Origin: Actinomycetota bacterium
GTDB lineage: Bacteria; Actinomycetota; Geothermincolia; Geothermincolales; RBG-13-55-18
Length of the DNA: 49,784 bases
Assembly: GCA_013178005.1 (NCBI GenBank)
Contig: JABLXL010000031.1
Span: 1-49,784 of the forward strand
Direction: 5' to 3'
Below the pieces are notes generated by a model. It was not told the origin of the DNA. It worked only from the letters and a program-made list of their open reading frames with translations, and did no database searches. This document shows, in pieces, positions 8,287-9,180 of the stretch; positions within the stretch are counted from its first letter, which is position 1, and each line of letters starts with the position of its first letter. Position numbers and translations under genes: made by a program.

Positions 8287-8410
8287 AGGAGCGTTTCCCG
8301 GCGGCGGAGGCGCATCCGCCGCTAAGGGAGAGAGGGGGAAAGGGATGTTCGCCGGGATCATGCTGAGCGTCGCAGTGGCCGCGATGCTACTCACGGAGAG
8401 GCATTCGCGT

Positions 8411-8439
8411 TTTATGAGATATTAACTGCGGCCTATAAT
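8411..8439 (+). promoter_or_regulatory. Candidate promoter of the CMD selenoprotein gene
   Basis: TATAAT at 8434-8439 with TTTATG 17 bases upstream (8411-8416). The -10 is consensus, the -35 is poor. It lies about 105 bases before the first possible start of the gene. Confidence 0.4.
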
Positions 8440-8544
8440 CGACGCCCCGGGTTTATCACGGTTGCTCACATTCCTATCACGCGCTTGTATGGGGCGGAAT
8501 ATGTGGAGGCAGTATTGGTATAAAGGAAAGAGGGATGGGAGGGA

Positions 8545-9180
8545 TTGAGTAAAGTGGTCGGCAAAGGGACGGTGCGGGCAGCGGGGTATCTGGCATATGC
8601 TGCGTGCCTAGTTTGCGCGTTCAGGAGCGCGAAGGTGGAACCGATGATCGAGCTGCACGAGCGCGACTGGTCCGTCTTCGAGGAAGGGCTGTCGCGGCGC
8701 AGCTTTCGCGACCTCTCGCATTTCCTGTATCACCTCAAAGGGTTGCTCCAGGCGCAGGTTCCCCTGGCCGAGATGTATCTCGGAAGGGCGCTGTCCCCCG
8801 CCTTCAGGGAGCGCATCATGCTGGTCACCGCGTACGCGAACCGGTGCGGGTGGTGACAGTTCGCGCACAGGCGATTCGGTCGGATCGCGGGGATGAGCGA
8901 GGAGGAGATGCGGGATCTGACCACCCTGGACCCCGCGAAGTTCGACCCGAGGGAGCACGCGGCCCTGTGCTGGGTGAAGGAGATGCTCACCCGCCGGGAG
9001 GGCGCATCGGAAGGCACGGCAAGGCGGTTCGAGGAGACTTTTGACGAGCGGGAGAGAAGGCACGTGATCGCTGCCGTGAAATCGATGTACTTCTTCAACC
9101 TGGCCGGCAACACCCTGGATCGCTGGCTGCGCCTGCTCACGGGCAGGCCGCCGGAACCCCCCGCCTCATGTGCTCTGTAG
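8545..9180 (+). CDS. AhpD/carboxymuconolactone decarboxylase-family selenoprotein (UGA = Sec)
   Basis: 211 aa if the UGA at 8854-8856 is read as selenocysteine (residue 104). The two open stretches are in the same frame with nothing missing, and the junction reads C-G-W-U-Q-F-A-H, matching the AhpD/CMD active site CxxC-x3-H with the second Cys replaced by Sec. Flanking helices (ERIMLVTAYANRC before, GRIAGMSEEEMRDL after) are typical of the family. A SECIS-like hairpin follows the UGA. The likely role is thiol/selenol peroxidase or disulfide reductase activity in the cytoplasm. The start is uncertain: TTG at 8545 gives an N-terminal extension, while ATG at 8644 (AAGGTGG upstream) would give ~178 aa, closer to the usual family length. 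The gene is monocistronic and convergent with the kinase. Confidence 0.8.
8854..8888 (+). promoter_or_regulatory. Bacterial SECIS element (CMD selenoprotein)
   Basis: UGA at 8854-8856 is followed by a stem GCGATTC (8871-8877) / GGATCGC (8882-8888) with apical loop GGTC (8878-8881). The loop lies 22-25 bases after the UGA, within the spacing of bacterial SECIS elements, and a loop beginning with G matches their consensus. The pairing includes one G-U. Confidence 0.75.

Follow-up and report, generated by a model that had tools for sequence, protein, structure and literature searches.

AhpD-like, CMD-domain selenoproteins with a CxxU motif were first described in 2005, with a further report in 2008, from the Sargasso Sea and GOS metagenomes (PMC1088965, PMC2398784), in line with the original prediction, and they are listed in a 2026 review (PMC13188914). 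In the AhpD of M. tuberculosis, Glu118, Cys130, Cys133, and His137 form a proton relay (PMC3141380). The published model of the bacterial SECIS (bSECIS) has a 4–16 bp stem, a 3–9 nt apical loop with a G in its first two positions, 16–37 nt between the UGA and the loop, and a minimum free energy (MFE) of −7.5 kcal/mol or lower (PMC13188914). Here we describe a gene in the window, that is, the whole 49,784-nucleotide stretch of DNA that was analysed. The gene resembles the metagenome CxxU selenoproteins in its CMD/AhpD fold, in having Sec as the second residue of the CxxC motif, in a bSECIS just downstream, and in having Cys homologs, but differs in lineage, as it comes from an uncultured member of the Actinomycetota, Ca. 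Geothermincolia. We conclude with near certainty that it is one functional selenoprotein gene, in which UGA is translated as Sec by means of SelB, tRNA-Sec, and a bSECIS, and that its product is an AhpD-like redox protein.

Among solved structures, the closest to the window protein by both sequence and fold is P. aeruginosa AhpD PA0269 (2o4d, 2ijc, and 7xw1). The two proteins have the E-C-C-H relay in common and are about 25% identical, with a TM-score of 0.45–0.48 by query length; PA0269, at 145–165 residues, has Cys where the window protein has Sec. The window protein scores exactly at the cut-off of the AhpD core domain TIGR00778 (27.8 of 27.8), and its residues 78–183 align to the peroxidase-related enzyme model TIGR01926 with a score of 21.4, well under the cut-off of 81.8. 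It has no match at E ≤ 1 to AhpD sensu stricto (TIGR00777, which includes M. tuberculosis AhpD), and this model picks up only one of the ten family members (best E 0.0096), below equivalog level. Three further AhpD-related families are named as (seleno)proteins, namely NF041047 (GSU3128 family), NF041238 (AhpD_rel_CFYUT), and NF053654 (GroundWater_YciW). They give weak matches to one to three of ten members, with best E-values from 8.7e-5 to 0.0028. The window protein itself lies below the cut-offs of all named NCBIfam selenoprotein models and matches only NF053654, where its 13.4 bits compare with a cut-off of 310. A literature search found no description of Geothermincolia selenoproteins, which is weak evidence of absence. 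The suggestion that the subfamily may be undescribed is plausible, since the window protein reaches none of these selenoprotein cut-offs. The members appear to form an undescribed subfamily, recognizable by a hydrophobic segment near the N-terminus, the H-x2-D-W signature, and a conserved Cys close to the C-terminus, three features scored in the present family.

The gene occupies a single frame of the (+) strand from 8545 to 9180, in which the lone internal stop is a TGA at 8854–8856 and the terminal stop is a TAG at 9178–9180. Mechanical ORF calling divides this frame at the TGA into ORFs at 8545–8856 (103 residues) and 8893–9180 (95 residues), so that the two open stretches divided by one TGA, as first proposed, are indeed present, as are the two short proteins that gene callers were expected to record. 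With UGA read as Sec, the gene spans 8554–9180 (+) and encodes 208 residues from a GTG start; a TTG at 8545 would give a protein of 211 residues. The true start is uncertain. The sequence favors the GTG, as the spacing from a GGAGG at 8539–8543 suits it better than the TTG and the alignment of homolog starts agrees. The TGA encodes residue 101 of 208, within NRCGW-U-QFAHRRFG, and so falls at the second active-site Cys of the AhpD CxxC-x3-H motif (here CxxU-x3-H, read as C-G-W-U-Q-F-A-H), just where it had been predicted. The read-through protein matches the Pfam CMD domain PF02627 (E 2.4e-9; 37.5 bits against a cut-off of 23) over residues 75–146, on both sides of the TGA. Because this match is continuous across the TGA, the two ORFs are not a chance pairing. 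Upstream in the same frame, the window at 8400–8525 reads GEAFAFYEILTAAYNRRPGFITVAHIPITRLYGAEYVEAVLV followed by a stop, possibly the remnant of a gene. Elsewhere, at 1804–2605, the window holds a tandem array of 159-bp units in five copies with 87% matches.

Related genomes and a genome-contig collection yielded 12 further clear members of the family. Ten have a TGA in the same column; they come from genomes G007, G012, G014, G011, G019, G024, and G028 (two genes) and from the bins JPNA_maxbin.176 and Prado116. Together with the window, the TGA form thus amounts to 11 genes in 10 genomes. The other two members have a Cys codon in this column, as anticipated for relatives of a Sec gene. These (loci L013/L028 and L019) belong to Candidatus Solincola daggyaiensis (G001), of the same genus, whose gene is the positional ortholog of that in the window, and to G017, of the same order. 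Aligned members are 34–67% identical to the window protein, and the aligned UGA homologs 34–60%. The named relatives are Candidatus Geothermincolia of the Actinomycetota; the Prado116 bin, which has the TGA form, is labelled Thermodesulfobacteriota. An alignment-based scan of the genome-contig collection found nine relatives and a single-sequence scan of it none, an alignment-based scan of viral contigs also found none, and a plasmid search gave one distant match of 26.9% identity. The second member in G028 (L024; C83:6147–6647) contains two in-frame UGAs and a weak SECIS. Its second UGA sits where other members mostly have Gly, and the gene may be decaying or may be a double-Sec gene.

Downstream of the TGA, at 8871–8888 (+), we found a 7-bp hairpin, GCGAUUC-GGUC-GGAUCGC, whose loop GGUC (8878–8881) begins at the 22nd base past the TGA, i.e. 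after a 21-nt spacer. Folding of the 24 nt around it gives this hairpin as the MFE structure, with −9.6 kcal/mol. Set beside the published bSECIS model, its 4-nt loop and 7-bp stem, the G residues that open the loop, the 21-nt spacing, and the folding energy all lie within the described ranges, bearing out the original identification of a GGTC-loop hairpin at this distance as a bacterial SECIS. The energy alone is unexceptional against both dinucleotide shuffles and synonymous recodings, and the significance of the hairpin therefore rests on its conservation across homologs. The loop and its closing pairs are formed by the codons for Phe-Gly-Arg, which among the 11 Sec genes are TTC in 11, GGT in 10, and CGG in 9 (CGA in the other 2); ten of the 11 keep TTC-GGT-CGR. 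The commonest codon thus makes up 1.00, 0.91, and 0.82 of these columns, against 0.80 or less at every other conserved four- or sixfold degenerate column. The Cys homologs have GGA-CGC and GCC-CGC at the loop codons, and the hairpin, when forced on them, has energies of +1.1 and −1.5 kcal/mol, i.e. it is lost in both. Pairing in the stem holds in 84% of cells, compared with 27–49% when the partner strand is slid by one to three bases, and the pair types vary (A-U, G-U, and G-C at one position, U-G and U-A at another). In two members, a register that leaves a 5-nt loop gives perfect pairing, and in the fixed register a double change occurs in one pair only. As covariation exceeds the shuffle control only modestly (14 of 500), the codon conservation weighs more.

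The genome of the window (3.6 Mb, 98 contigs, 97% complete) encodes the machinery needed to decode UGA as Sec. One contig (C49) carries an NADPH-dependent FMN reductase-like gene followed by selD, yedF, selA, selB, and selC, so that all four sel genes for which a search had been proposed lie in one cluster. SelD, YedF, SelA, and SelB are all above their NCBIfam cut-offs, and selC is a tRNA-Sec with anticodon TCA (78.8 bits). The selD at the head of the selD-yedF-selA-selB-selC cluster (L009:950–1987) is itself a selenoprotein gene, with an in-frame UGA in SGUAAK, the frame reading MSREIRLTHLSSKSG-U-AAKV. Among 31 genomes of the class, tRNA-Sec was found in 26 and selB in 27, and both are present in each of the eight Geothermincolia genomes that carry the TGA form. 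The Cys-form genome of S. daggyaiensis retains selB and tRNA-Sec; neither was found in the Cys-form genome G017, which is 82% complete. A second match to the tRNA-Sec model in the window's genome (contig C33, 65 bits) was rejected, as ARAGORN identifies it as tRNA-Cys(GCA). This 94-base tRNA-Cys (L010:5270–5363; C33:22273–22362) exceeds the Rfam tRNA-Sec gathering score, and comparable second matches to the model occur in several related genomes.

The window comes from a draft assembly of 98 contigs, TGT and TGC are each one base from TGA, and Cys homologs exist. The TGA could in principle be an error of sequencing or assembly, or else a nonsense mutation in a Cys-type gene that is decaying. 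We consider this very improbable, given that 11 genes in 10 independent genomes share the TGA column within a frame that is open and conserved on both sides, that only the Sec genes keep the same synonymous codons at the SECIS loop, and that the Sec machinery is in the genome. Even less credible is a changed code, with UGA read as Trp or another residue, or leaky read-through. The window by itself offers nothing but an in-frame TGA and would accommodate such a reading, but tRNA-Sec(UCA), SelA, SelB, and SelD are all encoded in the genome, the homologous residue is Cys and not Trp, UGA serves as the terminal stop of other family members in these genomes, and the SECIS is conserved. Sec at the UGA is the preferred reading, and the gene, its recoding context, its family, and its conservation are established computationally.

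The catalytic relay of AhpD is complete in the window protein. Cys98, the first Cys of CxxU (8845–8847), His105 (8866–8868), equivalent to His137 of M. tuberculosis AhpD, and Glu86 (8809–8811), all on the (+) strand, are invariant in the alignments, as is the Cys or Sec character of position 101; Glu86 lies 12 residues before Cys98, matching the gap from Glu118 to Cys130 (PMC3141380), and the AhpD spacing is kept throughout. An AlphaFold2 model of the window protein is all-helical, with a pLDDT of 82.9 and a pTM of 0.79. By hydropathy, residues 7–23 (8572–8622, (+)) form an N-terminal hydrophobic segment, over which the model predicts a helix (residues 5–27) at low confidence (pLDDT about 53); at that level the segment may be a membrane anchor or a signal peptide. 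Every aligned member except L036 has such an N-terminus, with K/R plus hydrophobic residues. The H-x2-D-W signature (His35, Asp38, and Trp39; 8656–8670, (+)) is present at the His in 9, the Asp in 10, and the Trp in 9 of the ten members of alignment A3. Cys206 (9169–9171, (+)), in a C-terminal -CxL/I tail, is found in nine of ten rows of alignment A1 and eight of ten rows of A3.

The protein most likely is an enzyme that reduces disulfides or peroxides and may be anchored in the membrane, with its activity and substrate putatively assigned by homology to AhpD only. We infer Sec insertion in vivo, catalysis, and substrate and, because the model has low confidence at the N-terminal helix and at the C-terminal tail, likewise the topology and the role of Cys206. 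In the proposed mechanism, SelB with tRNA-Sec(UCA) would decode the UGA at 8854–8856 under the direction of the bSECIS 21 nt downstream. Sec101 would stand in for the second motif Cys, such that the C98-x-x-Sec101 pair forms the redox center, with Glu86 and His105 as a proton relay of the AhpD type. Sec101 would attack a peroxide or a disulfide/thiol partner, and Cys98 would resolve the product into a selenenylsulfide intermediate. A dithiol donor would then re-reduce the enzyme, perhaps via Cys206, a conserved residue that may hand electrons on. The hydrophobic segment at the N-terminus may serve to anchor the protein or to export it. A more elaborate picture, in which Geothermincolia possess a membrane-anchored or exported AhpD-fold subfamily whose Sec101, Cys98, and a mobile Cys206 constitute a three-residue selenol/thiol relay at the external side of the membrane, is doubtful.

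An alternative is a selenoprotein of different activity, for example one that dehalogenates reductively, as the CMD-fold debrominase Bmp8 does, or one that catalyzes a reaction of the gamma-carboxymuconolactone decarboxylase type. Structures of Bmp8 (6ohi and 6ohj) are among the weaker fold matches, and it is not known where AhpD-like proteins bind their substrates (PMC3141380). We nevertheless regard such an activity as improbable, as the protein contains the full AhpD relay (E, C, C/U, H) whereas gamma-CMDs are without CxxC (PMC3141380), and AhpDs of the PA0269 type match far better.

The family also includes a probable exchange of Sec for Cys. The Cys gene of S. daggyaiensis is the positional ortholog of the window gene, as both have a DUF5122 propeller protein upstream and share a histidine kinase and an FAD oxidoreductase downstream. 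The tree places it as the sister of the window gene (support 100/99), and all other members of the supported group that holds it are Sec genes. Since the Cys gene is nested among Sec genes, the change there is most simply read as one from Sec to Cys. The propeller, the kinase (of the CHASE4-PAS type), and the oxidoreductase are common to close kin only. In two relatives, the family gene is immediately preceded by a gene for an HtrA-like serine protease (L029:2982–4034, with Trypsin_2 and PDZ domains, and an 81% identical homolog at L028:2026–3204); it is absent from that place in the window. The neighborhood comparison found no conserved adjacent partner gene across the family. Because the synteny is confined to close kin and the HtrA-like gene is missing in the window, we name no operon partner.

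AhpD-like CxxU selenoproteins have long been known, and so our understanding of selenoproteins is unchanged by this finding, which is firm but modest: a new subfamily of a long-known kind. Its contribution is a well-supported subfamily of selenoproteins in uncultured Actinomycetota, whose gene standard gene calling would cut into two fragments. The family also provides a natural experiment, in that the same-genus positional ortholog has turned to Cys and lost its SECIS while its genome retains the Sec machinery, with a second natural case in G017, where the Cys member resides in a genome without detected Sec machinery.
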